Part shown: in pieces, positions 1,775 to 22,716 of the stretch
How positions within the stretch are numbered: the stretch's first letter is position 1
Layout: each line of letters begins with the position of its first letter
DNA from: a virus
Direction: 5' to 3' (one strand)
Length of the DNA stretch: 26,298 nt
Virus record (IMG/VR): IMGVR_UViG_3300003691_000042
Location: 1-26,298 of that record
Notes under the pieces: model-generated
Told to the model about the DNA's origin: nothing
The model's input: the letters and a program-made list of their open reading frames with translations, nothing else
The model's database searches: none
Program-made: the position numbers and the translations under genes

Positions 1775-1796
1775 TACTTATTTGTTTTAAACAAAG

Positions 1797-1836
1797 ATGC
1801 CCGACCGTATTAAACCGGTCGGGCATTATTGTTTGT
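1797..1836 (+). terminator. strong intrinsic terminator ending the early operon
   Basis: A perfect 11-bp stem (ATGCCCGACCG at 1797-1807 with CGGTCGGGCAT at 1816-1826) has an 8-base loop. The flanks AAACAA and TTGTTT can extend the pairing. A T-rich tail follows. It separates the early genes from the Mor-like regulator. Confidence 0.85.
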
Positions 1837-1911: not shown

Positions 1912-2484
1912 ATGGATCTGAGAGAAGAATATTTGGAGCACATGAAAAAATTAAAACCAATGGCTGAAGATCTTCCGGGGGAACTGCCGATGATCTCAAA
2001 TGTTATTGAAGAGTCAGCTCCAGGTATGGGCGTCAAGATCACCATGCACCTTGCTACAGCCTACAGAGGGATAAAGGTATATTGGCACTCTCTTGACGGA
2101 TCAATACTCTTGCAGGACTACGCAAGAGGGAAATGGCCTGTTTCCCCCGATGAATTAAAGGAAACAAACTTGCATCACCTTCCTTCAAACGATTTACGGA
2201 TGATTGCTTCTTCCATATCAGAAGTGGCAGCTGGTATGGGGATACAAATCACTCTACGCCTTGCATGGGCATTCCGTGGCATGGTCACCCACTGGCACAA
2301 CATTGATAGGATAACCGAGGCCCACCGTAACTACTGGCTTATGAAACGTTATGATCTGGGGGATGTTACCGGGCGAGAACTTGCTATGGCCGTGGGGATC
2401 AGTCAGCGCAGATCTGAGGATATTCTATCCGGAAATATAGGCGGTACTCATATTGATTCGAGGCAAATTAGATTGTTTGATTAA
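1912..2484 (+). CDS. Mor/C-like late transcription activator with duplicated N-terminal domain
   Basis: This protein resembles the Mor/C activators of phage Mu, which switch on middle and late transcription. From the ATG at 1912 it has 190 residues. AAAAGG about eight bases upstream supports this start over the GTG at 1903. Residues 21-62 and 90-132 are two copies of one module, recognisable by GMGVKITMHLATAYRG in the first and GMGIQITLRLAWAFRG in the second. In Mor the matching region is the dimerisation domain, present once. Residues 145-175 (GDVTGRELAMAVGISQRRSE) form the single C-terminal helix-turn-helix. The gene stands alone between a terminator and a non-coding region, upstream of all late genes, which fits its role. 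The family assignment is from motif pattern and position. Confidence 0.75.
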   Translation: MDLREEYLEHMKKLKPMAEDLPGELPMISNVIEESAPGMGVKITMHLATAYRGIKVYWHSLDGSILLQDYARGKWPVSPDELKETNLHHLPSNDLRMIASSISEVAAGMGIQITLRLAWAFRGMVTHWHNIDRITEAHRNYWLMKRYDLGDVTGRELAMAVGISQRRSEDILSGNIGGTHIDSRQIRLFD

Positions 2485-2696
2485 AAAATATACGGGCTCC
2501 ATATCCTTTTGTGCTGATGAGGACCGGCCACCCGTTAATAACTGGCCGGGTAAACAAAAGATCAGGGATCGTCGTTAACCTGATGAATTAGCACATACGA
2601 CCCATTACTTTAAGAGAAATTTTTATTTGAGTAAGTAGCGCAAACGGTAAAGCGCAGCCATAAAAGGGATAAGGTGTCGGCAATTCAATAACATTA
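2485..2696. other. non-coding, structured interval between activator and late-promoter cassette
   Basis: No convincing gene is seen here. A hairpin CCGGCCA (2524-2530) with TGGCCGG (2543-2549) is visible, and an alternative pairing ACCCG/CGGGT uses the same bases. CTTTTGT just upstream can pair with ACAAAAG just downstream, and an outer TGTGCT/AGCACA pair encloses the whole. There is no T-tract, so it is not an obvious terminator. Around 2636-2690 the text looks like the D-arm of a tRNA (GCGC-AAACGGTAAA-GCGC), but acceptor and T stems do not form. Confidence 0.45.
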
Positions 2697-2732
2697 AAGG
2701 CTGTGTCCATCCGGACGCGGCCTTTTCTTTTT
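2697..2732 (+). terminator. intrinsic terminator in repeat copy 1
   Basis: GGCTGTGTCC pairs with GGACGCGGCC around the loop ATCC, using two G-U pairs. It is followed by TTTTCTTTTT. It would stop any transcription arriving from the regulator region before the late promoter. Confidence 0.8.
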
Positions 2733-2739
2733 CAATCTT

Positions 2740-2783
2740 CCGCAATGCGGTGTCTACCCCGCTTCCGTCCTGCCATGTATATT
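2740..2783 (+). promoter_or_regulatory. candidate activator-dependent late promoter, copy 1
   Basis: The dyad CCGCAATGCGG (2740-2750) is 33 bases, centre to first base, from the -10-like TATATT (2778-2783). If TATATT is the -10 box, the dyad is centred near -45, where Mor binds at the Mu Pm promoter (about -43.5). No -35 box is present. The same dyad, spacing and -10 occur at 11471-11514. Confidence 0.55.
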
Positions 2784-2836: not shown

Positions 2837-3433
2837 TTGAATTTAAACGATGAAATAAACATAACACCTTTGTGGCAATGGCCGCTTGTCCTCATGGCTC
2901 CAGCTATGGGCAGTAGCTTGGCCTCAATTGTAGACCCTGAGAGCGTATACCTCAAACTGCTCTATGGTTCCTTATCCCTATTCTTGATGTGGGCAGGCCC
3001 GGCCTTGTTCCAAAAGGTTTTCAGGTTCAGTGCAGATATCTGGCACGGAAAAGGGATGATCCGGCGTGATCTGGATAGCGGCGCAAAACAATGCGCCCGG
3101 ATTTATCTTGGCAGAGACCGGCCTTCTTTTCTCCTGGCTCCGCTCTCCTTCTGTTTTCTCAAGTGGACATTTACAGTCGGCGAAATTGATATAAATACCG
3201 GCTCCATTTCTGTGGGGAAATGTTTTGTCACAAACCTAGTGCAAGAAGAAAAACAGTGCAGGGCTATTGGGACAAATGATCTCATTACCGGGGTAGCAGC
3301 TAGGCACATAATACAGATCGAACGTGATATCCGTCGAAGAAGTCATTCGTTCCGGAATAGCAGTAAGGAACTGCTGGTAATAAATAAATTGCGCGACTCT
3401 GGCTTGATAATTAAAGAGGATGTTTCTCAATGA
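2837..3433 (+). CDS. predicted two-helix inner-membrane protein, first late gene
   Basis: I do not recognise this 198-residue protein. Two hydrophobic stretches near the N-terminus (about residues 13-31 and 38-58) look like membrane helices. The rest is a soluble, basic domain of about 135 residues containing RDIRRRSHSFR. The start is a TTG with GGAG seven bases upstream, and no better ATG fits. It is the first gene after late-promoter cassette 1 and overlaps the following lipoprotein gene by four bases (ATGA). In Mu the matching place holds the lysis genes, so a lysis role (holin-like or regulator) is possible, but nothing in the sequence proves it. No lysozyme, amidase or peptidase motif is visible. 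Confidence 0.65.
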   Translation: MNLNDEINITPLWQWPLVLMAPAMGSSLASIVDPESVYLKLLYGSLSLFLMWAGPALFQKVFRFSADIWHGKGMIRRDLDSGAKQCARIYLGRDRPSFLLAPLSFCFLKWTFTVGEIDINTGSISVGKCFVTNLVQEEKQCRAIGTNDLITGVAARHIIQIERDIRRRSHSFRNSSKELLVINKLRDSGLIIKEDVSQ

Positions 3434-4092
3434 AACCGCTCATCATCTCAGCAATAGCCCTGGCCCTGCTCTCTGGCTGCTCCTCAAAAGTTTATTACGA
3501 GCAACAGCCAAAACGTGATAGTGCCGAGGAGAAAAGAGTCATTGCTATTGGTGAAGGCCTTGGAAAAGTAGTTGCGGCATTTAGGCGAGGCGCTGATCAG
3601 CGCGTCGCCCATCGGCCCAATGCTAAATCGGCACAAAAAAATCTTGAATTTAGTGATGCAGCAATAGCAGAGAGTTTTGAAAACCGTATTCCATACGATG
3701 CGGAGGTAGACAGGTTAGAGGCTCCGGTCGAGGGCACCGGGCAAGCCATAATCATCCACAATCAACCGGCTGAATCGCTGCTGCTCCAGTACATTATGCT
3801 GGAGCGGCAAGCGGTTGCTAAACAGGCGGCGGCAGCAGAAGAAACAAAACAATTAAAAGAAATTATGGCAGCGTATACCAACGCTGTGCTGAAAAAACAA
3901 CCAGAACAAGCAGCACCATATACCGGAAAATCTACCATGAATAAGGTGGCCGATGCCCTGCCATTTCTTGGCACCATCATGGGCATGAATAGCCTTGGTA
4001 AAGCTGGTATTACTGGGGCAATTGGTGATACATCATCAAATCCAGTAACAACAATTATAAAAAATACAACCACTAACAGCGGAATAGAGTAA
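3430..4092 (+). CDS. predicted lipoprotein, possible lysis/spanin role
   Basis: The 220-residue protein begins with a clear lipoprotein signal peptide: a positively charged start, the hydrophobic core LIISAIALALL and the lipobox LLSGC with the acylated cysteine at residue 17. The mature part is charged with an Ala-rich helical stretch (about residues 122-160). Near the C-terminus is a moderately hydrophobic segment (about 177-197, ALPFLGTIMGMNSLG). An outer-membrane lipoprotein with a helical middle and a hydrophobic C-terminus would be compatible with a unimolecular spanin. The hydrophobic segment is weak, though, and other roles such as superinfection exclusion remain open. It starts inside the stop of the preceding gene (ATGA). 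Confidence 0.6.
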   Translation: MKPLIISAIALALLSGCSSKVYYEQQPKRDSAEEKRVIAIGEGLGKVVAAFRRGADQRVAHRPNAKSAQKNLEFSDAAIAESFENRIPYDAEVDRLEAPVEGTGQAIIIHNQPAESLLLQYIMLERQAVAKQAAAAEETKQLKEIMAAYTNAVLKKQPEQAAPYTGKSTMNKVADALPFLGTIMGMNSLGKAGITGAIGDTSSNPVTTIIKNTTTNSGIE

Positions 4093-4099
4093 AAAAAAT

Positions 4100-4840
4100 A
4101 TGGGTCCTGTAAGCAACTACACTTCCACAATAAACTTGATTAATCCACACGGCTTTCCGCTGCGGCTGGAGATTGGGGTGACAGGGTATACCTTGGATGA
4201 TCTCACCAGCACCGGCAGGTTATTGATAAGGGGACCAGGTTCAAACAGAGATCCCTTTCTTGATTCCGAAGCGTATACGGCCATTGATACAATAAATAAT
4301 CGTTACGTCGTGACTGTTCCTGCTGATGATCCGTTATACAGCCTGATATTGGAGGGTAAGCCCTACACATGGAGTTTTACAGCTGATACGGATTCATTCC
4401 GGGTTCAAGGTGATTTTAAATCATCATACGACACCGGCCACGCACCGGGGGAACCTCATGCTGCGCTGGTATCTGTTGGCCCAATTGGCATAGAGATCTA
4501 CTTTCCAGCTGGCCCCCGTGGTGATGTGGGGCCACAAGGACCGGCTGGCCCGTGGTCTGCGGAGGTTCGCCATGCAACCGAGTCAGGGGCAATAACCGCC
4601 GCTGACCAGACAGTCATAATCACGGCATCAGGCGGAACAATCGCCCTTACATTACCCACACCGTCCTCTCTCTATACCGACGGAGAAGGCCCAACCTATA
4701 CCATTACTTTCATTAGGCCTGCCGACGATACCGGCGATGTTACGCTTTCCGGAACTGGCCCTGATCTTCCTGATGATCTATACCCCGGCGAGGCTGGGCA
4801 GATCCAGAGTGATGGACTAAAACTTTATATAATTTGGTAA
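4100..4840 (+). CDS. phage structural/fibre-like protein with short collagen-like segment
   Basis: This 246-residue protein seems modular. The N-terminal half (about 1-135) looks like beta-rich structural sequence. A five-triplet collagen-like segment (GPRGDVGPQGPAGP, about 139-153) follows. The C-terminal half is rich in Thr, Gly and Asp, and resembles the small beta domains that close phage fibres. Such Gly-x-y segments often act as trimeric linkers in phage fibres and head decorations. Its place, upstream of the terminase and beside another structural-looking gene, is unusual for a tail fibre, so a head fibre or decoration is equally possible. The ribosome binding site is weak. Confidence 0.5.
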   Translation: MGPVSNYTSTINLINPHGFPLRLEIGVTGYTLDDLTSTGRLLIRGPGSNRDPFLDSEAYTAIDTINNRYVVTVPADDPLYSLILEGKPYTWSFTADTDSFRVQGDFKSSYDTGHAPGEPHAALVSVGPIGIEIYFPAGPRGDVGPQGPAGPWSAEVRHATESGAITAADQTVIITASGGTIALTLPTPSSLYTDGEGPTYTITFIRPADDTGDVTLSGTGPDLPDDLYPGEAGQIQSDGLKLYIIW

Positions 4841-4845
4841 AATAA

Positions 4846-6168
4846 ATGCAGAGATTCCTTAATTTATTAAATCTTGCAAAGGATCCTATCGACCCCGCTA
4901 CCAAGCAGGGGCAAGACAGTGCAAACGATAGCCTTAGCCACCTGGTAGACAGCGGAATAAAGTTTGATAATGATAATACAGGATCTGATGCCTTTGGACG
5001 GCAGCGGGTATCATCACCCTATACCGTATATGACATCAAGCAGAACACCTCAGCACAGCCACTCTTTTACGATGATCAGGAGGTTTCAGGCAGCGGCACG
5101 TCGTCAGTTTATAATAACGACAAGGCCTCTGTCACCATGTCGGTTGCAGCGGGCACAGCTGGCAAGCGTGTACGTCAAACAAAGGTGTGGAGTCAGTACC
5201 AGCCCGGTAAATCTCAGATGCTTATCTTCAGCGGAAATTTTCGCGGCGCAGTTCCTGGTGTAATAAAACGATCTGGGATGTTTTTTGATTCATGGGGCCT
5301 TTTTTACCAAGTCGATGGTACAGGTATTAGTGCGGTTATACGTACAAATAATACCAGTTCCCCTGTTGATATTGCTGTTCATCAAAATAATTGGAACGTG
5401 GACAAGCTAGACGGCACCGGATCAAGCGGGATAAACCTTGATTTAGAAAAAGCTCAGCTTGGAGTTATTGACTACGAGTGGTTAGGGATTGGGCAAGTGC
5501 GGTTTTGCTTTAAATTTGATGGTAGAATAGTGGAGGTACACAGGTTTACACACTCAAACTCTAACGAAGAAGTATACATGAGCAACCCGAATGCCCCTTT
5601 TCGGTACGAGATTGAGAACGATGGATCAGGCGCGGCAGCTACCTTTGATCATATATGCGTTTCTGTACAATCAGAAGGGGGGCAGGAGGAAAATCAGATA
5701 ATAACCTATGTATCAAGGGATGGGTCACCGATAACGTTGGCAAATCAAGATTTATATACTCCCGTATTATCGATACGCCTGAAAGCTGATCGCCCATGCA
5801 CTAGGATTACAGTAAAAGATCTATCTATCATTATAACTTCCGCCATTAATTATGAATGGATACTTTTTATCAACCCTGCCATTGCTGGCACTGACCAAGC
5901 TGTATGGCTAGATATTGAAAACTCAGCATTGCAATTTGACATATCCAGGAATGCTACAAATTTTTTATCAGGAGGATATAAGCTTGAAGGGGGGTATGGG
6001 GCATCATCCAATCAAATAAAAAACCCAACCGGTGACGCGGTGACATCATTTTTGACAATCGGGAGCATGATTGATGGCAGCATGGACGAATTTGTCCTTG
6101 CTGTAAAAAATATTGAAGGTAACGGTGGCGTCTGTTATGCAGGATTGACTGTTTCTGAATATTGTTAA
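4846..6168 (+). CDS. phage virion structural protein of the 'FGR-x-RVS' type
   Basis: The protein has 440 residues. After an N-terminal segment of about 45 residues comes DAFGRQRVSSPYTVYDIKQ, a pattern I associate with uncharacterised structural proteins of tailed phages. A long beta-rich part follows, with many Gly, Thr and aromatic residues and no membrane helix. A role in adsorption or head decoration is an inference from composition and from the fibre-like neighbour upstream. There is no enzyme motif. The stop lies just before the next gene, and the ribosome binding site upstream is poor, so translation may be coupled to the preceding gene. Confidence 0.5.
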   Translation: MQRFLNLLNLAKDPIDPATKQGQDSANDSLSHLVDSGIKFDNDNTGSDAFGRQRVSSPYTVYDIKQNTSAQPLFYDDQEVSGSGTSSVYNNDKASVTMSVAAGTAGKRVRQTKVWSQYQPGKSQMLIFSGNFRGAVPGVIKRSGMFFDSWGLFYQVDGTGISAVIRTNNTSSPVDIAVHQNNWNVDKLDGTGSSGINLDLEKAQLGVIDYEWLGIGQVRFCFKFDGRIVEVHRFTHSNSNEEVYMSNPNAPFRYEIENDGSGAAATFDHICVSVQSEGGQEENQIITYVSRDGSPITLANQDLYTPVLSIRLKADRPCTRITVKDLSIIITSAINYEWILFINPAIAGTDQAVWLDIENSALQFDISRNATNFLSGGYKLEGGYGASSNQIKNPTGDAVTSFLTIGSMIDGSMDEFVLAVKNIEGNGGVCYAGLTVSEYC

Positions 6169-6182
6169 GCAGGAGAGATAAA

Positions 6183-6599
6183 TTGATTAAGGAAATTTTA
6201 ATTATAACAGCTCTATCTGTGCCCTATTTGTCATTCGCCCAAGATCTTGACGACCCGTTTCCCCCTACAGGTCTTGAGCGGATAGAAAAACAAATGGATA
6301 AGATCGCTGACAGTGTCCACCAAATAGATAAAAATGTCGCGGTCGGGCAAAGGGATATATCGACTTTTGCGGATGCGTTTTCCGAGCAAAAGGAACAGAC
6401 ATCTTTACTAAAGGGAAGAACCCTATCTATTGAAAATGATCTTGTTGCCGTTAAGATAGATACTAAAGGTAATAAGGAAGATATACGGACCATAAAAGGA
6501 AATCTTTTCAAGATAGTTTTATCAATACTAACCATGATTGGAATGATTGCCGCTGCATATATAACAAGAAAAAATCATAACCAAAAGGATAAGACATGA
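6183..6599 (+). CDS. signal-peptide coiled-coil protein with C-terminal membrane anchor
   Basis: From the TTG at 6183, which has AGGAGAG well placed upstream, the protein has 138 residues. An N-terminal signal peptide (IKEILIITALSVPYLSFAQ) probably ends after SFA. A charged, heptad-like region (about 30-110) follows. A hydrophobic segment (about 112-130, IVLSILTMIGMIAAAYI) precedes a basic tail. This would place the coiled coil in the periplasm, anchored at its C-terminus in the inner membrane. That arrangement fits an accessory lysis or envelope protein, but I know of no exact family. An upstream TTG at 6162 is open but has no ribosome binding site. The stop overlaps the start of a 22-residue membrane peptide. 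Confidence 0.6.
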   Translation: MIKEILIITALSVPYLSFAQDLDDPFPPTGLERIEKQMDKIADSVHQIDKNVAVGQRDISTFADAFSEQKEQTSLLKGRTLSIENDLVAVKIDTKGNKEDIRTIKGNLFKIVLSILTMIGMIAAAYITRKNHNQKDKT

Positions 6600-6664
6600 T
6601 TGAAAGCTCTTTATTTACCTTGGTTATTTTAATATTTATACTTGGATTATCAAATTATTTTTAG
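6596..6664 (+). CDS. 22-residue single-helix membrane peptide
   Basis: ATG at 6596 overlaps the stop of the preceding gene (ATGA) and has AAAGGAT well placed upstream. The peptide MIESSLFTLVILIFILGLSN plus two residues is almost entirely one membrane helix. It ends at TAG 6662-6664, twelve bases before the next gene. The good ribosome binding site and tight packing argue that it is real. Tiny hydrophobic phage peptides can be holin-like or inhibit host membrane enzymes, and no role can be assigned here. Confidence 0.55.
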   Translation: MIESSLFTLVILIFILGLSNYF

Positions 6665-6676
6665 AGGAATGTCGTA

Positions 6677-7219
6677 ATGAGTAACGGAGTGAATGAGCAA
6701 AGCACATATCATGAAACGAGAATAAAATTTATTGCAGATTGGACGCGAGAAAGAGAATTAAACAGGCGCATAGTTAACGACTTAGAAACAATCACAGAAT
6801 TCCTTGTGAAAACAGCAAAGGAAGGTATAAAAAAAGATCCACCAATAAAGATTGATGCTGGGACAAGGGATAATATTTACAAATTCTTCAGCCTCACAAA
6901 TAAGGTTGCTGTCGATCAGATAAAGTGTGATCAAGCCCTACTATCTCTTATTCAAGACGGGGAAGAGTCGGGGAATGGTGATGATCTAAAGCGAGTCAAG
7001 GAACTCTTCTCTGATCAGTTATCGTATCTGGAGAGACTGCCAGCGGAAAATAGATCAGACGCAAAATTAAGGGCACTAACCAAGATGAGTGAGGTTATTT
7101 TCAAATGGGATAATGCCCTTTCAATTCTTGACAATTTAGCAAAAGGTGCTGATGAGGATGGCAAACTAACCATAGACGCTCAGACGGTCAAGGATATCAG
7201 AGAGCAGATAGGACTTTAA
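6677..7219 (+). CDS. putative small terminase subunit (by position)
   Basis: This 180-residue protein is mostly helical and charged, with no membrane segment or recognised motif. It lies immediately upstream of the large terminase and overlaps it by one base (TAATG), the usual place of a small terminase or of Mu gp27. The N-terminal 60 residues look helical and basic enough for DNA binding, but a clear helix-turn-helix is not evident. It has a good ribosome binding site (AGAGGAA). The assignment is positional only. It could instead be another Mu-type accessory protein. Confidence 0.5.
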   Translation: MSNGVNEQSTYHETRIKFIADWTRERELNRRIVNDLETITEFLVKTAKEGIKKDPPIKIDAGTRDNIYKFFSLTNKVAVDQIKCDQALLSLIQDGEESGNGDDLKRVKELFSDQLSYLERLPAENRSDAKLRALTKMSEVIFKWDNALSILDNLAKGADEDGKLTIDAQTVKDIREQIGL

Positions 7220-8628
7220 TGGGCAATGCTAAGATAACCCCAAGGGAGCCCAATAAGTATTTTTTGCCTTACCAAGATGCATGGATAGACGATCCTTCCA
7301 GGCTCAAGCTAATGGAAAAATCAAGACAGGTGGGGCTCTCCCTCTCTTCTTCGTTTTCATCCGTAGCCAAGACAGCCCCACAGAAAACACGCTTTGACCA
7401 TTGGGTATCATCAAGAGATGAGATTCAAGCAAAACTCTTCCTTGAGGATTGTAAGCTTTTCTCCGGGATATTAGATAAAGCCGCGAAAGATTTAGGGCTC
7501 ATCATCCTTGATCAGAAGAAAAATAAATCTGCATACGTTCTTGAGTTTTCGAACGAAAGGCGGATACACTCTATGTCGTCAAACCCTGATGCGCAGGCGG
7601 GGAAAAGGGGAGGAAGAACCCTTGATGAATTTGCGCTGCACCCTGATCCGAAAAAACTTTATTCCATCGCTTACCCAGGCATTACTTGGGGTGGACAGCT
7701 GGAGATTATCTCAACTCATCGTGGTAGCCATAATTTTTTTAACGAGCTGGTGAAGGATGTACGGGAGAGGGGAAACCCTAAAGGTTTTTCTTTGCATACC
7801 GTCACTCTCCAGGATGCTCTTGACCAGGGTTTTCTTTACAAGCTGCAAGCTGTCCTTCCAGAGGATGATGAACGACAGTATATGGACGAAGCTCTTTATT
7901 TTGATTTTATCCGGGCTGGATGTGCTGCTGAAGAACAGTTTCTGCAGGAGTACATGTGCCAGCCTGCCGACGACAATAGCGCTTTTTTACCATATGATTT
8001 GATTGCATCCTGTGAATATCACGCTGCTGAAAAGTGGGAACTTGAGCAACAGGAAACAATATCAGAATTGTATATGGGCGTGGACATAGGCCGGAAACAT
8101 GATCTTACAGTTTTTTGGATCGTAGAAAAGATAGGAATGGTCTTTTTTACACGTAAAATTGTTGAATTAAAGAACACTCCATTTACCGAACAACAGAGGG
8201 TTTTTTATAACCTGATTAAATTGCCTGGAATGCGCCGTGTTTGCGGTGACGAATCAGGCCTGGGCATGCAATTAATAGAGCAAGCAAAAGAAAAATACGG
8301 AAATTACAAAGTTGAAGGAGTCACTTTTACGGGGCCAATGAAAGAATCACTTGCCTACCCTTTGCGCACAGCGTTCGAAGATGGAAATATCCGAGTGCCC
8401 ATGAGTGATAAAATAAGAGCTGATATGAGGTCAATAAAAAAGACTATCACGACGGCAGGTAATATCAGATTTGATGCAGACAGAGGGCCTGGAGGACATG
8501 CTGATAGGTTTTGGGCCGTGGCTTTGGCTCTGCACGCAGGATCTACGGAAAGAACAGATTTTAAAATAACGGTGGCCGGGGAAGACCGAGCGACTTTAAA
8601 CATGGGTAGTTTTTTAAGGAGAACCTGA
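7219..8628 (+). CDS. terminase large subunit (Mu gp28-like)
   Basis: This is the ATPase-nuclease motor that packages phage DNA into proheads. The 469-residue protein has an adenine/Walker A-like KSRQVGLS at residues 34-41, where the classic GKT/S loop is altered as in Mu-type terminases. Walker B with the catalytic acid is TLDEF (Asp136, Glu137). A coupling segment ISTHRG sits near 165. The RNase H-like nuclease half shows MGVDIGRKHD (Asp289), CGDESG (Asp344, Glu345) and GGHADRFWA (Asp429), the three expected acidic sites. The length is normal for the family. It overlaps the upstream gene by one base, and the portal gene starts one base after its stop, a typical packaging operon. Confidence 0.9.
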   Translation: MGNAKITPREPNKYFLPYQDAWIDDPSRLKLMEKSRQVGLSLSSSFSSVAKTAPQKTRFDHWVSSRDEIQAKLFLEDCKLFSGILDKAAKDLGLIILDQKKNKSAYVLEFSNERRIHSMSSNPDAQAGKRGGRTLDEFALHPDPKKLYSIAYPGITWGGQLEIISTHRGSHNFFNELVKDVRERGNPKGFSLHTVTLQDALDQGFLYKLQAVLPEDDERQYMDEALYFDFIRAGCAAEEQFLQEYMCQPADDNSAFLPYDLIASCEYHAAEKWELEQQETISELYMGVDIGRKHDLTVFWIVEKIGMVFFTRKIVELKNTPFTEQQRVFYNLIKLPGMRRVCGDESGLGMQLIEQAKEKYGNYKVEGVTFTGPMKESLAYPLRTAFEDGNIRVPMSDKIRADMRSIKKTITTAGNIRFDADRGPGGHADRFWAVALALHAGSTERTDFKITVAGEDRATLNMGSFLRRT

Positions 8629-8629
8629 T

Positions 8630-10114
8630 ATGCCACGACCTATTGTCCGAGAATTAGGCGGATTAACCACTGATCCTGATTTTTTTTATGGGTGGCTTGA
8701 TTACACAGAGAACCCGGACCCCATCCTCCGGTATGAGTCAAATGGTAAGGGCATCACCTTTTACGATGAAATTGACAGAGACGACCGGGCCGGACCGGTG
8801 CTTGAAGCCAGATATGAAGCCGTAGCGGGTGAAGACTATGAAATTGTTCCAGGTGGAAAAACAGCACGTCATAAAAAAATTGCTGAATTTGTCGAGAGTA
8901 ACCTAAGGGCAATAAACCTGCCAAGTGCAACAAAGGATCTGCTGCAAGCAATCCTCTATGGTTATTATGGACTTGAAATCATGATAGACCAAAAAGGCGC
9001 GGGGCAACCAATAAAGATAAGAAAACTTATAGGAAAACACCCGCGCCGTCTTCTTTTTGATGCTGAGCGTAATGTTCGTCTGCGTACCAGAAAAAATTCT
9101 CTCCACGGTGAACCGGTTCCAGATGATAAATTCATCATCCTGAGCTTTGGCGATACGGAAAACCCCTACGGCAAAGGGCTTGGCCGTCGCCTCTGGTGGC
9201 CGGTATGGTTTAAAAAAAATGGGATAAAATTCTGGTCTATTTTTCTGGAAAAATTTGGATCCCCTACCGTCGTTGGAGAACACCCGCCTGGGGCTGATGA
9301 TGATCAGATAAAAGAGATAGAAAGAGCAACAATGCTGGTTCAGCAAAAGACCGGCGTCGTTATTCCTGAAGGATTTGCCCTGAAACTGTTAGAGGCCACC
9401 CGCACCGGTAATGCATCATATGAGGCAATGGTACAGCGGATGGATACGGCAATCTCTATCACAATCTTTAAACAGAATTTAACCACTGAAGTTAAGGGTG
9501 GTTCACGGGCCGCTTCGGAAACCCATGATTCCGTTGCGCACCGTACAAGCAAGATGGATGCCAAGCTTGTTGAGGATGTTTACAATGAAACAATGATCCG
9601 CGATTTGGTTGACTGGAACTTCTCAGGAGTAAAGGAAGAAGAGTACCCGGAAATCCGTTACATCATGGAGAAGGAAACAGTCCAAAAAACAGATGCCGAA
9701 ACCGATGAAATTTTATTGACGAAAATCGGTCTGAATCTTGATCCTGCTTGGCTTGCGAAAAAATATAATGTCAAAACCGATGGAGTTCCAAGGCTTGACC
9801 AACCTGAAGGCGGGAAACCTGCTGCCTTTGCAGAAAAAGCACCACAGCAGACCATAGATAATCAAGAGCAAATTGACAAGCTGACTGATAAGGCAATCGC
9901 CAAGGTTGACTTGGCCGACAACGAGCAAATCATTCTTGACCTCATCAGAAAATCATCCTCATACGAGGAAGTTTATGCAGGATTGGCCGACCTGTATGAC
10001 TCACTCAGCATGAAAGATTTAGAGAAGGTGATGAAAGATGCCCTGCTTATGGCTTATGCCTCCGGGGTAGAGTCTGTTGAAAAACAGGTAGAAAAGGCGG
10101 TGAAAGATGCCTGA
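8630..10114 (+). CDS. portal protein, DUF935 family (Mu gp29-like)
   Basis: This is the dodecameric ring through which DNA enters the head. The 494 residues match the expected size of the DUF935 portal family. Recognisable parts are the N-terminal region ending in YEAVAGEDYEIVPG, the central segment GLRRRLWWPVWFKK-like at about 183-196 (here GLGRRLWWPVWFKKNGIKFW) and the FGSPTVVGEHPPGA turn. A helical, acidic C-terminal part of about 90 residues (from about 405) follows the crown region. It begins one base after the terminase stop and overlaps the F-like gene by eight bases. Confidence 0.9.
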   Translation: MPRPIVRELGGLTTDPDFFYGWLDYTENPDPILRYESNGKGITFYDEIDRDDRAGPVLEARYEAVAGEDYEIVPGGKTARHKKIAEFVESNLRAINLPSATKDLLQAILYGYYGLEIMIDQKGAGQPIKIRKLIGKHPRRLLFDAERNVRLRTRKNSLHGEPVPDDKFIILSFGDTENPYGKGLGRRLWWPVWFKKNGIKFWSIFLEKFGSPTVVGEHPPGADDDQIKEIERATMLVQQKTGVVIPEGFALKLLEATRTGNASYEAMVQRMDTAISITIFKQNLTTEVKGGSRAASETHDSVAHRTSKMDAKLVEDVYNETMIRDLVDWNFSGVKEEEYPEIRYIMEKETVQKTDAETDEILLTKIGLNLDPAWLAKKYNVKTDGVPRLDQPEGGKPAAFAEKAPQQTIDNQEQIDKLTDKAIAKVDLADNEQIILDLIRKSSSYEEVYAGLADLYDSLSMKDLEKVMKDALLMAYASGVESVEKQVEKAVKDA

Positions 10115-10778
10115 TATTGAACCGCTTCCTTTTATTGAAGCAATAGAATTCTGGGCAGATAAAATCACGTTGAGCCCCAAAGAATTTTATGAAATCAGCG
10201 ACGAAGCAAGAGCACTGGCCTTTAGTGTTGCCGGAATAGCAAAAATATCAGAGCTGGACACGGTGAAGGATATTATAGATAAATCCTTGGCCGAGGGCCT
10301 GACCTTTAAGGAGTTCCAAGCGCAAGCCGGAGACCTCTTTTCAAAGAGAGGCTGGGCCGGGAAAAATCATTATCGTGTTGATAATATTTTCCGGACAAAC
10401 ATTCAGACGGCATATAATGCCGGTCAATATAATACGCTCAAGAGAAATACAGATATCCTCCCATACTGGACTTACTCCGCAGTAGGGGATGGAAGAACGC
10501 GACCTGAACACGCCGCAATGAGTGGCAGAACATGGCCAGCAGACCATGAAGTGTGGGATACCTGGTTTCCTCCCAATGGTTTCCGCTGCCGATGCTCCGT
10601 TTACGGCAGCACGCAGGAGCAGGCACAGGGCCGATCTGTTAAGGTCGAAACAAGCAACCCTACAGGTGATCCGGTACCGGTTTACAACTCAAAAGGTGAG
10701 AAGACCGGAACTGTTCCGTTGCAACCTGATCCGGGATTTTCCGCAAACCCTGGTAAAGCATGGGCAGGAAATGCATAG
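10107..10778 (+). CDS. F-like head morphogenesis protein (SPP1 gp7 / Mu gp30 family)
   Basis: This is a minor head protein that binds the portal and helps early head assembly. The 223-residue protein carries the family signature in its second half: FRTNIQTAYNAGQY, then GRTRPEHAAMSGRTW and the Cys/aromatic end WFPPNGFRCRCSV. Mu gpF is considerably longer, so this is a short form, but no frameshift is visible and the start (ATG 10107) overlaps the portal gene as expected. The C-terminal 40 residues are Pro/Gly-rich and probably flexible. Confidence 0.85.
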   Translation: MPDIEPLPFIEAIEFWADKITLSPKEFYEISDEARALAFSVAGIAKISELDTVKDIIDKSLAEGLTFKEFQAQAGDLFSKRGWAGKNHYRVDNIFRTNIQTAYNAGQYNTLKRNTDILPYWTYSAVGDGRTRPEHAAMSGRTWPADHEVWDTWFPPNGFRCRCSVYGSTQEQAQGRSVKVETSNPTGDPVPVYNSKGEKTGTVPLQPDPGFSANPGKAWAGNA

Positions 10779-10779
10779 A

Positions 10780-10881
10780 ATGGACTCTAAGCAAGGAAAT
10801 GAACATTCGCATCTGTTTGTACTGGCAACGCTGAAAGAACTAAACAGTAAGCGTCCTGGTCTCCACATGGTGCATGTATGA
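10780..10881 (+). CDS. 33-residue ORF between F-like and G-like genes
   Basis: ATG at 10780 starts two bases after the F-like stop, with AGGAA nine bases upstream. The ORF ends in a TGA that overlaps the ATG of the G-like gene (ATGA). The product MDSKQGNEHSHLFVLATLKE plus 13 residues ends in GLHMVHV. It fills the whole gap with the same overlap style as its neighbours, which suggests a real small gene or a translational coupler. Its function is unknown. Confidence 0.5.
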   Translation: MDSKQGNEHSHLFVLATLKELNSKRPGLHMVHV

Positions 10882-11384
10882 CTGGCGGGGTGTCTCTTGC
10901 AGTAGATATGTCGTCTTTGCAGAAAGCTGCTAAAGAGCTTACGAAGCGGTTTGAAAAGAAAATTGTTCTGCAAAAGGCAGGTGATTATCTCCAACAATCA
11001 ATAAGATACAATTTCGTTGTAGGAGGAAGGCCGACACGGTGGAAGCCACTGAATTACCGGACAGGGCAACCACTGCGAGATACCAATAGGCTGATGAACA
11101 GCATTACCAGCAAGGTGCGTGGTGAAAAATCTTATGTTGGTACCAATGTAAAATATGCACCAACGCATAATTTTGGGGCAAAAAAAGGGCAGTATGGTAA
11201 GAAAAATGTAACGGTGCCCGCGCATAGCAGGAAGCGTGGTGGAAAAACATACTCTGTCCGGTCCCACAGTCGGAAAATGTCTCTGCCGTGGGGCGACATC
11301 CCGAAGCGTGAGTTTATAATTGTGCAGAACGAAGATGTATTGGAAATAGAGCGGATTTTGAAACGGCTTGCTGAAGGGCAATAA
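10878..11384 (+). CDS. G-like virion morphogenesis / tail completion protein
   Basis: The protein has 168 residues and belongs by pattern to the Mu gpG/phage virion morphogenesis family (P2 gpS-like). Evidence is the basic N-terminal helix, the segment GRPTRWKPLN, the DTNRLMNSI motif, the YAPTHNFGAKKG loop and the C-terminal LPWGDIPKREFI, which are conserved in order in the family. It probably acts at the head-tail joint. It is the last gene of the first late operon, with the terminator of repeat copy 2 following 44 bases downstream. Confidence 0.85.
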   Translation: MTGGVSLAVDMSSLQKAAKELTKRFEKKIVLQKAGDYLQQSIRYNFVVGGRPTRWKPLNYRTGQPLRDTNRLMNSITSKVRGEKSYVGTNVKYAPTHNFGAKKGQYGKKNVTVPAHSRKRGGKTYSVRSHSRKMSLPWGDIPKREFIIVQNEDVLEIERILKRLAEGQ

Positions 11385-11427: not shown

Positions 11428-11463
11428 AAGGCTGTGTCCATCCGGACGCGGCCTTTTCTTTTT
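11428..11463 (+). terminator. intrinsic terminator in repeat copy 2
   Basis: GGCTGTGTCC/GGACGCGGCC stem with loop ATCC, followed by TTTTCTTTTTT. It ends the operon that finishes with the G-like gene. Confidence 0.8.
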
Positions 11464-11470
11464 TAATCTT

Positions 11471-11514
11471 CCGCAATGCGGTGTCTACCCTTCTTCCTTC
11501 TTGCCATGTATATT
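11471..11514 (+). promoter_or_regulatory. candidate activator-dependent late promoter, copy 2
   Basis: The dyad CCGCAATGCGG (11471-11481) and TATATT (11509-11514) have the same 33-base spacing as copy 1. The start codon of the protease gene lies about 40 bases downstream of TATATT. There is no -35 box. Confidence 0.55.
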
Positions 11515-11553
11515 TTCAATAAATCAAACATTGAAACAAGAGGAGGATGTCAT

Positions 11554-12672
11554 ATGTCCGATGAAGAAAAAGGGCTTTCCGGTTGGATTACTATTTTTGC
11601 AGGCGGAAAACAAACCGACATGGATGGGGTCGAACATAACGGAGACGATCTGATTGACCAGGCTGTCTCTTCGTTTGACCCGGCATTCCATGAACCACCG
11701 GCTGTTATAGGTCACCCGCAGGACAACAGCCCCGCATGGGCATGGGTTTCAGGATTAAAGACTGAGGTAGCCGACGTCGGTGGGCAAATGAGAAAAACCC
11801 TGCTGGCAAAATTTAGGGACACTGTGCCTGAATTTCAAGAATGGGTAGAGAACAAAAGATATAAAAAACGTTCTGCTTCTTTTTACCCAGATGGCAGATT
11901 ACGTCATGTGGGATGGCTCGGTGCGATGCCGCCTGCAGTTAAGGGGCTCCCTGATCCGCAGTTTGCCGAGGGCGAGGCGGTTGTTTTCGCTTTTGCCGAG
12001 GATTCCCCACCCGCTGATGATGCAGGGATGATCGTCAAAATGTATAATTTACTCAAGACATGGGTAAATGATCAGGATCCTAAAGAGGTGGCTGAAAAAG
12101 AAGAAGACCCTGCCCAACAAGGTCTGGATGAAAATAATAATTTCAAGGAGGATGAAACGGATATGGCTGGATTGTCAGAAGAACAAGTAAAAGAGCGAGA
12201 GGAAGCCGCACAGCTGAAAGGTAAACAGGAAGGCAAGGCCGCTGCCTTTGCTGAATTCCAAAAGCAGCAGGCAGGCCGCAAGATTTCTATTTATTTAGCC
12301 ACCCCCGTGAAAGAGGGTGGACCTGTACCAGCTTTGGTTGATGCAGGGCTTTCAAAGTTTTTGGAACGGATAGACAGTGTTTCATCTTTTGCTTTTTCGG
12401 AGGATGACGGCACGGAAAAACAGACAGATCTTGATTTCTTCATTGAGCATATCGCGCCCCGGCTGAAATCTCCAAAATTTGGAGAACACGCGGGCCGAAG
12501 AAATGCGCCGAATTTTGCAGAAGATGGCGGCACAGAAGATCTTGACCCCGTTGCAGTGGGGACTGCGGCAAAAGCCTACAGATTTTCCGAGAAACAGAAG
12601 GGAAATGCACTTACCGGCGCACAGGCTGACAATTATGTACGTGAAAACTGGAATGAATTTGAGGGGAAATAA
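11554..12672 (+). CDS. Mu I-like head maturation protease with C-terminal scaffold region
   Basis: This is a prohead protease/scaffold polyprotein like Mu gene I. The start is the ATG at 11554 with AGAGGAGG upstream; a further upstream frame-open ATG at 11476 lies inside the promoter repeat and is unlikely. The N-terminal half (residues 1-160) has the family's pattern GWITIFAGGKQ, then PAVIGHP with His near 51, the segment RSASFYPDG with Ser near 108, and LRHVGWLGAMPPAVKGL. Together these are the likely catalytic His and Ser. The C-terminal half is charged, helical and Gln/Glu/Lys-rich, as in scaffolds. An internal in-frame start at 12163 probably makes the scaffold alone. The stop overlaps the next gene's ATG by one base. 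Confidence 0.85.
   Translation: MSDEEKGLSGWITIFAGGKQTDMDGVEHNGDDLIDQAVSSFDPAFHEPPAVIGHPQDNSPAWAWVSGLKTEVADVGGQMRKTLLAKFRDTVPEFQEWVENKRYKKRSASFYPDGRLRHVGWLGAMPPAVKGLPDPQFAEGEAVVFAFAEDSPPADDAGMIVKMYNLLKTWVNDQDPKEVAEKEEDPAQQGLDENNNFKEDETDMAGLSEEQVKEREEAAQLKGKQEGKAAAFAEFQKQQAGRKISIYLATPVKEGGPVPALVDAGLSKFLERIDSVSSFAFSEDDGTEKQTDLDFFIEHIAPRLKSPKFGEHAGRRNAPNFAEDGGTEDLDPVAVGTAAKAYRFSEKQKGNALTGAQADNYVRENWNEFEGK
12163..12672 (+). CDS. nested in-frame scaffold product (Mu Z-like)
   Basis: Within the protease gene, AAGGAGG at 12145-12151 precedes an in-frame ATG at 12163 (MAGLSEEQVKEREEAAQLKG). The product would have 169 residues and correspond to the scaffold half alone. In Mu the scaffold Z is made from inside gene I in this way. 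The Shine-Dalgarno match is as good as that of the full gene, although its spacing of 11 bases is on the long side. Confidence 0.65.
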   Translation: MAGLSEEQVKEREEAAQLKGKQEGKAAAFAEFQKQQAGRKISIYLATPVKEGGPVPALVDAGLSKFLERIDSVSSFAFSEDDGTEKQTDLDFFIEHIAPRLKSPKFGEHAGRRNAPNFAEDGGTEDLDPVAVGTAAKAYRFSEKQKGNALTGAQADNYVRENWNEFEGK

Positions 12673-13052
12673 TGGCTTTTGATCTTTTTTTTGTTGACGT
12701 TGGCAGTGCAGAGGAAACTGTTCTGCCACACAGATTTGTTGCATTTGGGGCCACTGCTGGCAAGGTGAAGCAGGCAGATCTTGCAACAGAAGCAATACTC
12801 GGGGTGAGCGATGAATGTGGCGTAGTTGTTACGGTTGCTACCGATGAAAACAGGGTTGACTTCAACGTTTTGGGGTACGCCAAAATTACCTACGGTGCAA
12901 CCATTATAGCTGGTGCCCACCTGACCACCGATGCAGATGGAAAAGCAGTAACAGCAGTCGCAACCAATAGAGTCGGGGCGATGGCCCTGACAGCAGGGGT
13001 GGCTGGAGACATTCACCTTGTAACACTTATTGCCGGTTCACCGGTACTGTAA
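12672..13052 (+). CDS. DUF2190-like capsid decoration protein
   Basis: The 126-residue protein is small, Ala/Val/Gly/Thr-rich and beta-strand-like, with the repeated short pattern of DUF2190 capsid cement proteins (a GVSD turn, then LGYAKITYGATIIAGAHLTT and a C-terminal hydrophobic LVTLIAG). It lies between protease/scaffold and major capsid genes, the usual place for a decoration protein that stabilises the expanded head. It has a good ribosome binding site (GAGGGG) and overlaps the protease stop by one base. Confidence 0.75.
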   Translation: MAFDLFFVDVGSAEETVLPHRFVAFGATAGKVKQADLATEAILGVSDECGVVVTVATDENRVDFNVLGYAKITYGATIIAGAHLTTDADGKAVTAVATNRVGAMALTAGVAGDIHLVTLIAGSPVL

Positions 13053-13061
13053 GGAGATATA

Positions 13062-14027
13062 ATGCCACCAAAATATATGCAGTTTGCTGAAGGGAACCCG
13101 ATGCCAATTGACTCGGTAGCCCTGTCCGTCCTCGTTGCTTACGTAAACGAGGGAGGGATTGCCGATAAATTTGCACCTAAAGTACCCTGCCCTGGTTCGC
13201 TCTTTGAGTATCTGAAGTACGAAAAGACAGACTTTTACCGCCTCCCTGCTACACGGGTTGGTCGAACATCTCGGACAAACCGTGTCGAGTTTAAGGCGAA
13301 GGAAGAAACCGGCAAAGTATACGATGAGGCCCTTGATTATTTCATTCCGTTGAGGGACGAAAAGGACAAACAGAAATTCAACGTCAGTCAGCGTCAGGTC
13401 GGTACTGAGATGACAATGAACGATGTGCAGCGAGTGAGGGAAAAGCGGGTTGCCGATAAGGCCCAAGATAGTGCCAACTATGATGTAGCAAACGTGTTGC
13501 CCCTTTCGGGGACTGATCAATGGGACGACCCTACAAGCAAGCCTTACGATTTGATTACATCCATCATTAATACGATGCTGGTTAGGCCCAACAAGATGAC
13601 CATAAATGGTCATACTGCATCTGTATTACGCGGGCATCCTGACCTTATCGCTAAAATTCACGGTGCAGGCGGGGCCAAGGGAACCGTTAATATGCAAGAG
13701 ATTGCTGCACTCTTCATGCTTGATGAAATCCTGGTAGGGGAGACGCGAGTTAATACCGCGCAAGAAGGACAAGCAGCAGTGATTGAGCGAACATGGGAAA
13801 ATAACATGATCCTTAGCCGCACTGATACACAGCCTTCTTTGTTGGGTGGAACAAGATCTTTTATGGTTTCTCCGAAGTGGCGTGATATTGCGGTTTCATT
13901 CTTTGATCCAAACATTGGCGCTGATGGTGCCGATGCTATCCGGGTGGGAGAGAGTATCACGGAAATTGTTACCGCTCCTGATCATGCTTTCCTGGTGCAG
14001 ACCGTCCTTGCTAACCCCATCGCGTAA
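13062..14027 (+). CDS. major capsid protein (HK97-type fold expected)
   Basis: This 321-residue protein sits immediately after the protease/scaffold and decoration genes and before the head-completion genes, the standard position for the capsid subunit. Features typical of this group are the early charged loop, the segment GHTASVLRGHPDLIAKIHGA, a long helix-like region through MQEIAALFMLDEILVG and the terminal domain with RSFMVSPKWRDIAVSFFDP. Ribosome binding site TAAGGAGATAT is strong. The N-terminal region is not obviously cleaved. The fold is inferred from context and family knowledge. Confidence 0.85.
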   Translation: MPPKYMQFAEGNPMPIDSVALSVLVAYVNEGGIADKFAPKVPCPGSLFEYLKYEKTDFYRLPATRVGRTSRTNRVEFKAKEETGKVYDEALDYFIPLRDEKDKQKFNVSQRQVGTEMTMNDVQRVREKRVADKAQDSANYDVANVLPLSGTDQWDDPTSKPYDLITSIINTMLVRPNKMTINGHTASVLRGHPDLIAKIHGAGGAKGTVNMQEIAALFMLDEILVGETRVNTAQEGQAAVIERTWENNMILSRTDTQPSLLGGTRSFMVSPKWRDIAVSFFDPNIGADGADAIRVGESITEIVTAPDHAFLVQTVLANPIA

Positions 14028-14040
14028 TTATGGAAACAAT

Positions 14041-14409
14041 ATGAACACATATCTTGTGAAACGTCGTTTACTTCATGACGGTGTTTTTTACGGACCTAAT
14101 GAGGACGTAAACACCACTATTGATCTGCCTCCCAAGGAGGCGGGTCAGTTACTTCTTCTTAAAAATTCTCCTATCGTAAAAATAGTGTCCGGTTTCACCG
14201 CCAATACCGGCGTGGCAATAAAAGCAATATCTCTAAATGAAGCTATCTCCATTATTGCTGAAGAAATGCCAAGAGATGAGGATAAGTTTGCAGGCGATAA
14301 ACCAAAAGCCTCTGCCGTGTCTGATTTGACTGGAAATAAGGTTAATGGATTGGAGCGTGATAAAGCATGGGCTGGTTACCTTGAAAAGAAAGCTGAGTTG
14401 AGCAAATGA
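14041..14409 (+). CDS. hypothetical head-region protein (position of Mu gp35)
   Basis: I do not recognise this 122-residue protein. The N-terminal half (MNTYLVKRRLLHDGVFYGPN) looks like a small beta-rich domain, and the C-terminal half is charged and helical. The chosen ATG at 14041 follows the capsid stop by 13 bases and has only a weak GGA upstream. The frame is open further 5' into the capsid gene, but those residues are a shadow. It overlaps the next gene by four bases (ATGA). By position between capsid and gp36-like it is comparable to Mu gp35, for which no firm function is known. Confidence 0.6.
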   Translation: MNTYLVKRRLLHDGVFYGPNEDVNTTIDLPPKEAGQLLLLKNSPIVKIVSGFTANTGVAIKAISLNEAISIIAEEMPRDEDKFAGDKPKASAVSDLTGNKVNGLERDKAWAGYLEKKAELSK

Positions 14410-14837
14410 CAGCAAGGCTTGCTGAATACCAGGATTTTGAGGATAGGTATGGAATAACCTTCATGACTCGCCTTACTGACCATGAGAGCACAGGGGACCC
14501 CGACAAGCAAAAAGTTGAATTCGCGGCAGATGATGCCACCGCCCTTGTTTATGGAAAGTTGGGTATGCAATATCTTGTCCCTACAGATCCTCACCCACAG
14601 ATATTGGTCAGGATCTGTATTGTAAATTCTATCTGGAACCTAGGGCTTTCCTTGAATGGTGGCCTCGGTGAAGATTGGGATGCAGCAAATCAAGAAGCTC
14701 TTACTCTGCTGGAAAGTATTGCTGCTGGAGACACGACACTAGGTGTTGAGGATCCGCAACACACCGAACCCCCTAATCCGGTAATTGTCAATGCATCTCC
14801 CACCGTTTTTACGGATGAAAAGCTGAGCCGATACTAA
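14406..14837 (+). CDS. DUF1320 / Mu gp36-like head-completion protein
   Basis: The 143-residue protein has the expected start of this family (TARLAEYQDFEDRYGITFMT). A helical middle follows, with ALVYGKLGMQYLVPTDPHPQ and ILVRICIVNSIWNL, and then a variable acidic tail. The family occurs next to the capsid in Mu-type phages and is thought to be a head-tail connector. It overlaps the preceding gene (ATGA) and its stop overlaps the next start by one base. Confidence 0.8.
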   Translation: MTARLAEYQDFEDRYGITFMTRLTDHESTGDPDKQKVEFAADDATALVYGKLGMQYLVPTDPHPQILVRICIVNSIWNLGLSLNGGLGEDWDAANQEALTLLESIAAGDTTLGVEDPQHTEPPNPVIVNASPTVFTDEKLSRY

Positions 14838-15328
14838 TGCGCGAACTTTTAAAGGCCATACAAGAAACACTCCGATCCGGGCTTGACTCCACGGTTTACC
14901 GGATTGGATCCACTCCTGAGCAAAGTGATATATTTATTGCCGACAACGAGCAATATTTACCAAAAGCTTGCCTGTTTCCAGCGGTTGGCATTAAGGATGC
15001 CGGAGAATCTGAGTTGATAGAGCATGCCTGTGGTGAGAACCAGATGGCCGAAGAATCAACATTTACGGTTTCTATAATTTGCTGGGCTCCATCACTCAGC
15101 AATAAGATAGGTGGGGGTATAATAGGGGATCAAACACAGCCAGGAATACAAGATAGTAAAATATATATTCACACTCTGTTGCGGGGTAATACCCTTGGAT
15201 TGGATTTTGTTGAAAGCGTTAATCGTGGAGCCATACCGCCAAGCCAGACCACCATACAGGATGCCGGGACAGCTCAAAGCTTAGTGATTCCGTATATTTA
15301 TGAAATTAAAAAATATTACATGATATGA
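14837..15328 (+). CDS. gp37/DUF1834-like head-tail joining protein
   Basis: 163 residues. The N-terminal helix (MRELLKAIQETLRSGL) and the following beta-rich region with KACLFPAVGIKDAG and FTVSIICWAP match the general look of Mu gp37-like (DUF1834) proteins. These are related to tail-terminator or joining proteins. The position directly after the gp36-like gene supports this. It overlaps both neighbours (one base upstream, four downstream). Confidence 0.7.
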   Translation: MRELLKAIQETLRSGLDSTVYRIGSTPEQSDIFIADNEQYLPKACLFPAVGIKDAGESELIEHACGENQMAEESTFTVSIICWAPSLSNKIGGGIIGDQTQPGIQDSKIYIHTLLRGNTLGLDFVESVNRGAIPPSQTTIQDAGTAQSLVIPYIYEIKKYYMI

Positions 15329-15531
15329 GAAAATATATCCTTAAAAAAGGGGTGCCAGAAATCACCATTATGGATGGCGAATTAAAGGGCCATACATACA
15401 AACACGGGGTGTTTTACAAGAGTATCCCCTCTCAACATAAGTCCTCATTTATCCGAAAAAGTGTGGGTGTTAAGAGACCATTTGGCAAGGAAAAGCTGCC
15501 AGAAAAACAAAAAAATAAAGAGGTCGTCTAA
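15325..15531 (+). CDS. small basic protein in the position of Mu gp38
   Basis: A 68-residue, very basic protein that starts in the stop of the gp37-like gene (ATGA) and whose last base overlaps the tail tube start. Mu carries gp38 (DUF2635) here, but apart from size and position I see little direct similarity. The sequence KKGVPEITIMDGELKGHTYK could be a small beta domain and the Lys-rich tail may be disordered. Function unknown. Confidence 0.55.
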   Translation: MRKYILKKGVPEITIMDGELKGHTYKHGVFYKSIPSQHKSSFIRKSVGVKRPFGKEKLPEKQKNKEVV

Positions 15532-16823
15532 TGGCAAAATCAACTCAATCAATGCTGAACCTGTTTTCAGTTGGGGCCGGGGCGCAGGAAGTTGCAATAA
15601 ATACGTTTGGCACCCTGGATCAATCCATTGTAGTGGGCGAGGGGGACTTTATCCAGATGGCCCCACTCCGGGAAACCAACCGTGGAGAGGCCACCGGCTT
15701 TGAAGAGCCCACTGAAGTTTATGACAATGGACGAACGTATACGATGGCATTCAGTCCAAAATTTTGTACATACAATAAGATGGCGTTTCTTATGGCCTAC
15801 GCCCTTGGAATCTGCACCACTGTTGCTGCTGGTACCGGGTACAAACACACCATAACCCCCATTGCCGGATATGTTGATGATGACCGATCAAACCCTACTT
15901 TCACGGCGGCACAGCGATTGAGTGACGATACACAGTGGACTCGCTTCGCTTCTGGAGCGGTGCAAAGCGTAACAGAAACGTATGCCCCTGGAGAATGGGT
16001 TAAAATCGCCGCCAATCTCGTATTTTCAGGTAAGTATGAAAAAGTTATAACAGAAGAAGAAGTTGCTGATCTTGATAATGTAACAGCTATTACCCTTTCA
16101 ACCGCAGTTCCAGGAGCAACCCCCGCTGAACGTCTTGAAAATATCAGATCAATCCGCGTGCAGTACAATGGAATAAAAGATCAGTACATTTCCCCCGTAT
16201 CGGTCGATGATCAAGACCCGGCTGTTATTACCATCGCAAGCCTTGGAGGCGCGGGTGATACCGTCACCTATAAAGTTCTTTATCGGCATCCTGACCCGGC
16301 ATGGTTACCACTACCAGCAGCAATTTCAGAGCCAAACATAAAAGTTAGTCAAGTGGTGATTACCATCGGTGGAAGCTGGAACGGAACCGAGTTTCAGGGG
16401 GGACGAACTATTTGTTCAGATCTTGGTTCGCTTGAGGCTACGTTTACAAATGACAGCCTCGACCCCATGCAAACGCCATGCGCAGCCGATCCGGATCAAC
16501 AGTACGGCGGTGTCATTAAACGATCTGGAAGAACCCAAACAATCACCCTATCGAAAGAACTCCGTGACGTTTTGACGGGCGCAATTTTCGACGCTGAAGA
16601 TAAGATTGGTCTTGAAATTGTTGCAGATGGGGTGGTTTTCCCAGGGGATACCGAAAAATATAGCTACCGTCGTGTATGGCCGGTATGCGCAATTATGGAT
16701 AATCAGCTCGGAACAGATAATAGTCGGAATCAGGAAACTCTATCTCTTGAAGCCTTGGAAGATGCGACCTACGGATCAACCATTGTGGTTATTCAAAATA
16801 TCGTTGCTGCATACGCTGCTTAA
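15531..16823 (+). CDS. major tail tube protein, siphovirus type
   Basis: The 430-residue protein is beta-rich, begins with AKSTQSMLNLFSVGAGAQEV and contains the segment RGEATGFEEPTEVYDNGRTY, like other tube proteins of long flexible tails. It is followed by tail chaperones and a tape measure, which fixes its role. A Mu sheath protein would be longer and would be followed by a separate short tube gene; none is here. Residues about 165-265 (from VADLDNVTAITLSTAVPGAT) look like an inserted Ig-like domain, which would explain the large size and decorate the outside of the tail. It marks the switch from a Mu-type head module to a non-contractile tail. Confidence 0.8.
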   Translation: MAKSTQSMLNLFSVGAGAQEVAINTFGTLDQSIVVGEGDFIQMAPLRETNRGEATGFEEPTEVYDNGRTYTMAFSPKFCTYNKMAFLMAYALGICTTVAAGTGYKHTITPIAGYVDDDRSNPTFTAAQRLSDDTQWTRFASGAVQSVTETYAPGEWVKIAANLVFSGKYEKVITEEEVADLDNVTAITLSTAVPGATPAERLENIRSIRVQYNGIKDQYISPVSVDDQDPAVITIASLGGAGDTVTYKVLYRHPDPAWLPLPAAISEPNIKVSQVVITIGGSWNGTEFQGGRTICSDLGSLEATFTNDSLDPMQTPCAADPDQQYGGVIKRSGRTQTITLSKELRDVLTGAIFDAEDKIGLEIVADGVVFPGDTEKYSYRRVWPVCAIMDNQLGTDNSRNQETLSLEALEDATYGSTIVVIQNIVAAYAA

Positions 16824-16840
16824 TATAAAAAGGAAATAAG

Positions 16841-17511: not shown

Positions 17512-17515
17512 CATC

Positions 17516-22697: not shown

Positions 22698-22716
22698 TAA
22701 ATAACAAGAGGATAAT

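Follow-up and report, generated by a model that had tools for sequence, protein, structure and literature searches.

Genes and late operons of the prophage

The DNA analysed here (the window) is the complete IMG/VR virus record IMGVR_UViG_3300003691_000042, which comprises 26,298 bases. It covers the middle and late regions of a Mu-like prophage that is integrated in a bacterial genome and whose tail genes are of the siphophage type; the transposase region and the left (early) part of the prophage lie outside the record. The recognised genes encode (i) a Mu-type portal protein, MuF, a G-like protein, the head maturation protease and the major head protein, and (ii) a Mu gp36-like protein, the tape measure protein and a fibre J-like protein. 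The G, protease and portal proteins match Mu families in PHROG or Pfam. The right end of the window is occupied by a hydantoinase-like gene of the host, whose best relatives are found in one order of the Desulfobacterota (the phylum being assigned via one genome named Desulfobacteraceae).

The gene order activator, terminase, portal, G, protease is the same in Mu and in many relatives. In the window, a Mor/C-family activator gene (1912-2484, plus strand, with ATG 1912 as its likely start; the listed start is GTG 1903) is followed by two late operons of the same orientation. The first (2837-11384) includes an unknown gene (198 aa), a lipoprotein-like gene, a virion protein gene (4846-6168) and the terminase, portal, MuF and G-like genes. 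The second (11554-23337) contains the protease, decoration/scaffold and major head protein genes, followed by head-tail and tail genes. "The late regulon" of the first-pass annotation here denotes these two operons, the left part of the prophage being outside the record.

Two further observations concern the tail genes. An open frame without a start of its own (17242-17514) continues beyond 16841-17314, with its stop just ahead of the tape measure gene; A-runs are present at about 17300, and the frame probably extends the tail assembly chaperone by frameshifting. The tail protein encoded within 20286-22697 has repeated segments of the YTGISGNNFTGCS type, which correspond to three 59-nt repeats at 20934-21637.

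Structure of the duplicated cassette

A repeat search of the window revealed an 87-nt cassette present on the plus (coding) strand at 2697-2783 (copy 1) and 11428-11514 (copy 2), the copies being 8731 nt apart and 94% identical. An 87-bp block occurring twice with about five differences had been described in the first-pass annotation; there are exactly five, the second copy has T at each, and no third full copy is present in the 26,298-base record. The local alignment of the copies scores 74.5, compared with a maximum of 15.5 for shuffled sequences, which rules out chance as the source of the repeat. Both copies are intergenic: copy 1 is directly 3′ of the activator gene (1903-2484) and copy 2 separates the G-like gene from the head protease gene. 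Each is composed, in order, of a hairpin with a T-rich tail, a short link, the sequence CCGCAATGCGG, 27 nt, and TATATT. Beyond TATATT the copies diverge gradually, and a gapped alignment extends for about 20-35 nt at low identity. The start codons of the downstream genes are placed 53 and 39 nt past TATATT: TTG 2837 after GGAG, and ATG 11554 after a GGAGG ribosome site (11542-11546).

Both copies contain an intrinsic terminator, i.e. a GC-rich hairpin followed by a T-tract. Terminator 1 (2696-2733, plus strand), which closes the activator transcription unit, has a 13-bp stem; terminator 2 lies at 11428-11464 (plus strand), and both were identified by a terminator scan. The two hairpins have stems of 12-13 bp, 4-nt loops and T-rich tails, with folding energies of -26.2 and -25.3 kcal/mol (z = -5.6 and -5.2 against shuffles). 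A third, diverged cassette terminator (23434-23404, minus strand) consists of the hairpin AAGGCTGTGCCCATTACCGGGGCACGGCCTT, which aligns with the cassette terminator. It faces into the end of the late region and separates the end of the late genes from leftward genes; neither the dyad nor a -10 follows it. A search of 251 genomes from the probable host order gave one occurrence of the cassette terminator pattern, so that a chance likeness within 26 kb is unlikely (estimated at the order of 1e-4 or less). It appears that the phage uses one terminator three times, with promoter parts added only at the starts of the late operons.

Another strong hairpin/terminator, unrelated to the cassette, is located upstream of the activator gene (1796-1827, plus strand; z = -6.3) and may insulate that gene from the preceding operon. 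A perfect 12-bp palindrome, AACGATATCGTT, is present at 1878-1889, just upstream of the same gene. It is likely that the hairpin and palindrome (1796-1889) constitute a terminator plus a regulated promoter of the activator gene.

The sequence CCGCAATGCGG is the dyad CCGCA-A-TGCGG, a candidate activator site located at 2740-2750 and 11471-11481 (plus strand) and nowhere else in the window, even when one mismatch is allowed. TATATT, the putative -10 of the first late operon (2778-2783) and of the protease/capsid/tail operon (11509-11514), begins 27 nt past the end of the dyad and 33 nt from its centre in both copies, and a promoter scan of the plus strand found no sigma-70-like hexamer pair at either cassette. 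A -10-like hexamer without a -35 is the sequence pattern expected of a Mu-type late promoter. The scans thus confirmed the earlier description of a terminator, a dyad and TATATT in each copy, with the same 33-nt spacing and without a -35 box. In a search for a third late promoter elsewhere in the window, the best place scored 13 of 16, equal to random sequence.

As signals, the dyad and the -10 are individually weak. Of the shuffles of the 45-nt segment, 18% contain a perfect 5-bp dyad whose spacer lies anywhere in the range 0-11, and 2.3% contain one with a spacer of exactly 1, which makes the dyad alone a weak, near-chance feature. All five differences between the copies fall outside the hairpin, the dyad and the -10, as had been pointed out in favour of selection; with p = 0.023, calculated post hoc, this provides a weak hint only.

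The activator and its doubled N-terminal domain

The protein encoded at 1903-2484 gave no match to Mor in Pfam, as a whole or in halves, or in PHROG. Its homology to accepted members of the Mor/C family (PF08765) is established via homologues, a profile and a fold match. Relatives of the phage were retrieved through the portal gene. Two single-domain homologues (in L008 and L017) are 40-41% identical to the C-terminal 112 residues of the window activator, and that of L008 scores above the Pfam Mor cut-off (PF08765). Within the probable host order, 31 of 251 genomes provided further homologues, several of which score above the Pfam cut-off; a profile of 31 homologues matches Mu C (1.2e-12) and Mor (2.8e-9). 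In one genome (G456), a Mor-family gene is found at three loci (L149, L151, L152) of a single 5.1-Mb chromosome contig, at least one of them within a Mu-like prophage.

The C-terminal half of the activator was modelled with a pLDDT of 87. Its top-ranked solved neighbour in Foldseek is Mu C in the initiation complex 9l0x, with a probability of 0.97 and an E value of only 0.29; Mor ranks sixth. The full-length AlphaFold model was set aside for its low confidence (pLDDT 55).

Members of the Mor/C family have one N-terminal dimerisation domain and one HTH within about 110-150 aa, whereas the window activator, of about 190 aa, combines a single HTH with a doubled N-terminal domain. This domain is single in all 36 related regulators. 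In Mor, it is responsible for dimerisation (Mor structure, 1RR7). The structures 9l0x and 9vw8 each contain four C chains. An activator with a dimerisation domain doubled within the chain might read the late regulon, the compact 5-1-5 dyad being a matching changed operator and the chain itself supplying part of a multi-subunit arrangement for which Mu C uses four separate chains (9l0x). We consider this rather doubtful, and relating the doubled domain to the four C chains is speculation.

The cassettes as a candidate late promoter pair

In phage Mu, the late promoters Plys and PI are located at the same two junctions as the cassettes, i.e. after the C gene and between G and the protease gene I; they also lack a -35, and a Mor/C-family activator gene lies just before the first of them (promoter sequences: PMC4461284). 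Both cassettes thus have the location of a Mu-type late promoter, one after the activator gene and the other at the G/protease junction. At the C/lys junction of Mu, a perfect hairpin extends into the C site of Plys, and at the G/I junction a hairpin immediately precedes PI, so that a hairpin followed by a late promoter at both junctions is the Mu plan. However, the two Mu junctions share just about 13 bp and have two different hairpins, whereas the window repeats hairpin and promoter as one 87-bp unit, whose dyad differs in sequence and spacing from the Mu late promoters. Equating the two sites with Plys and PI, as in the first-pass annotation, proved correct as to position; a literal lysis operon after copy 1 is not supported, since no lysis gene was recognised across 2837-6599 and the product of 4846-6168 is a virion protein. 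The name Plys for the promoter of copy 1 is therefore only positional.

The Mu promoter Pm has a -10 without a -35 plus an upstream activator site, and in its Mor element, centred at -43.5, a 6-bp spacer separates two 5-bp arms (PMC4390567). The window shares the solitary -10, and its dyad would be centred near -45, assuming a transcription start at about 2790. The earlier proposal of a dyad at a Mor-like position fits in distance, but binding of the dyad by the Mor-like protein is not supported, given the 5-1-5 geometry (a spacer of 1 bp in the window dyad against 6 bp in the Mor site) and the absence of the dyad from relatives. The window regulator also differs from Mor in having two N-terminal domains. 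The 5-6-5 pattern is found with one mismatch in copy 1 only and is missing from copy 2. On a 6-bp repeat, a Mor-like dimer would not place its two recognition helices as it does on an 11-bp one.

A test independent of the window used other Mu-like phages, in each of which the whole genome was searched for similarity to its own G/protease junction. The best match was (i) the junction after mor in Pseudomonas phage D3112 (31, null maximum 20.5), (ii) the gap before the holin gene in Chromohalobacter phage YPCBV-1 (24 versus 19), and (iii) a site in the lysis region of phage B3, not above the null; AFS-2018a, Lsp-JY19, KP12 and the partial record of Mu yielded no convincing partner for this junction. 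D3112 and YPCBV-1 thus have, as does the window, an element common to the mor/lysis and G/protease junctions, although their elements are shorter (30-75 nt), less alike, built on another core (CGTTGAACCCCTTCC; CCGCTGAAGTCCTTCGCCT) and without a shared terminator. The reading of the window repeat as a late promoter pair gains support from these two phages, whose partner lies at the predicted junction.

Among the closest relatives, G and the protease gene are mostly contiguous (gap of at most 30 bp in 29 of 41 loci), and a terminator follows mor in 3 of 34, which is not enriched over a background of 2.9%; the cassette plan is thus not fixed in the group. No other Mu-like contig carries the dyad with this spacing to TATATT. 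The exact cassette core has 0 matches across IMG/VR, in a search from which the records nearest to the genome of the window may have been excluded and which does not imply uniqueness. With the same possible exclusion, the pattern dyad-N27-TATATT has four matches, but these loci encode no relative of 13 tested window proteins and were rejected as relatives. Neither the 258 genomes searched from the probable host order nor 10 further genomes contain the cassette, which also finds nothing longer than 23-32 nt in annotated phages and has no match in Rfam. Two other candidates were discarded: the motif ATAACCAA downstream of mor in 35 relatives, which is mostly inside coding DNA, and long repeats upstream of the protease gene in L028, L033, L020, L036 and L054, which are dispersed repeats and not the cassette. 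These five related prophages contain dispersed intergenic repeats in their late regions, in several copies each. In a 187-kb viral contig (L108; 1786-1829, minus strand), a terminator precedes CCGCATTGCGG, with TATATT 27 nt further downstream; the fetched stretch contains no Mu-like genes, and this arrangement is probably due to chance.

Taken from the sequence, the likely role of the two cassette copies is that of a Mu-type late promoter pair bounding three transcription units. The hairpin and T-tract of each copy would stop RNA polymerase arriving from the upstream unit, and the host-sigma -10 TATATT, lacking a -35, would start the next late operon, for which it would need an activator at a site some 45 bp before the start. 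The most likely activator would be the Mor/C-family protein whose gene lies just before copy 1. We infer that transcription starts at the cassettes, late in timing, that activation is due to the Mor-like protein and that the dyad is the site of this protein. The proposed fusion of terminator and promoter-like element has found support, also from the Mor/C-family gene just ahead of copy 1, and the third terminator, placed without promoter parts where only termination is needed, also argues for a promoter pair.

The same third terminator, lacking dyad and -10, would also be explained if only the terminator were functional and had been duplicated. A recent duplication or gene conversion would then have brought the dyad and TATATT with it, and another promoter would serve the late region. 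The copies are alike enough for a recent origin, dyad and -10 are each weak alone, and the G/protease gap of close relatives is usually too short for a promoter. Such strong terminators would, however, leave the downstream genes promoterless unless a promoter lies within the 50-110 nt preceding their start codons; furthermore, the part shared by the same two junctions in D3112 and YPCBV-1 is mainly not a terminator, and all the copy differences avoid the dyad and the -10 (p ~0.02). We regard this explanation as improbable. Slightly better placed, though still unlikely, is a promoter pair controlled by another factor (a host regulator, a phage repressor or an activator from the left part), with the dyad as the operator of that factor. 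The GC-rich 5-1-5 dyad is unlike the Mor geometry, and other regulators may exist in the early region outside the record, but the gene immediately before copy 1 is of the Mor/C family, which parallels the position of C ahead of Plys in Mu, and the order mor-terminase-portal is common to many relatives.

It is very improbable that the cassette is a dispersed host-type intergenic repeat (REP-like) found at two gene junctions by chance. Dispersed repeats do occur at these junctions in L028, L033, L020 and L036, but they are present in many copies and differ in make-up from the cassette, which is missing from all 268 genomes searched (258 of them from the probable host order), and whose terminator pattern was found once in 251.

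Interpreted as a late promoter pair, the arrangement is a tidy variant of the known Mu late-promoter scheme and not a new kind of system. It would provide a cleanly delimited, naturally duplicated terminator plus activator promoter for Mu-like late genes outside the enterobacteria. The two-junction scheme of Mu can be detected from sequence alone by junction comparison, as in D3112 and YPCBV-1, and the doubled domain of the activator offers a testable case for the assembly of Mor/C proteins on DNA.

The G/protease gap measures 100-340 bp in 11 of 41 loci, including that of the window, and may be a common insertion point. In D3112 (L156, 18796-19918), acrF2 and two small genes are located inside this junction.
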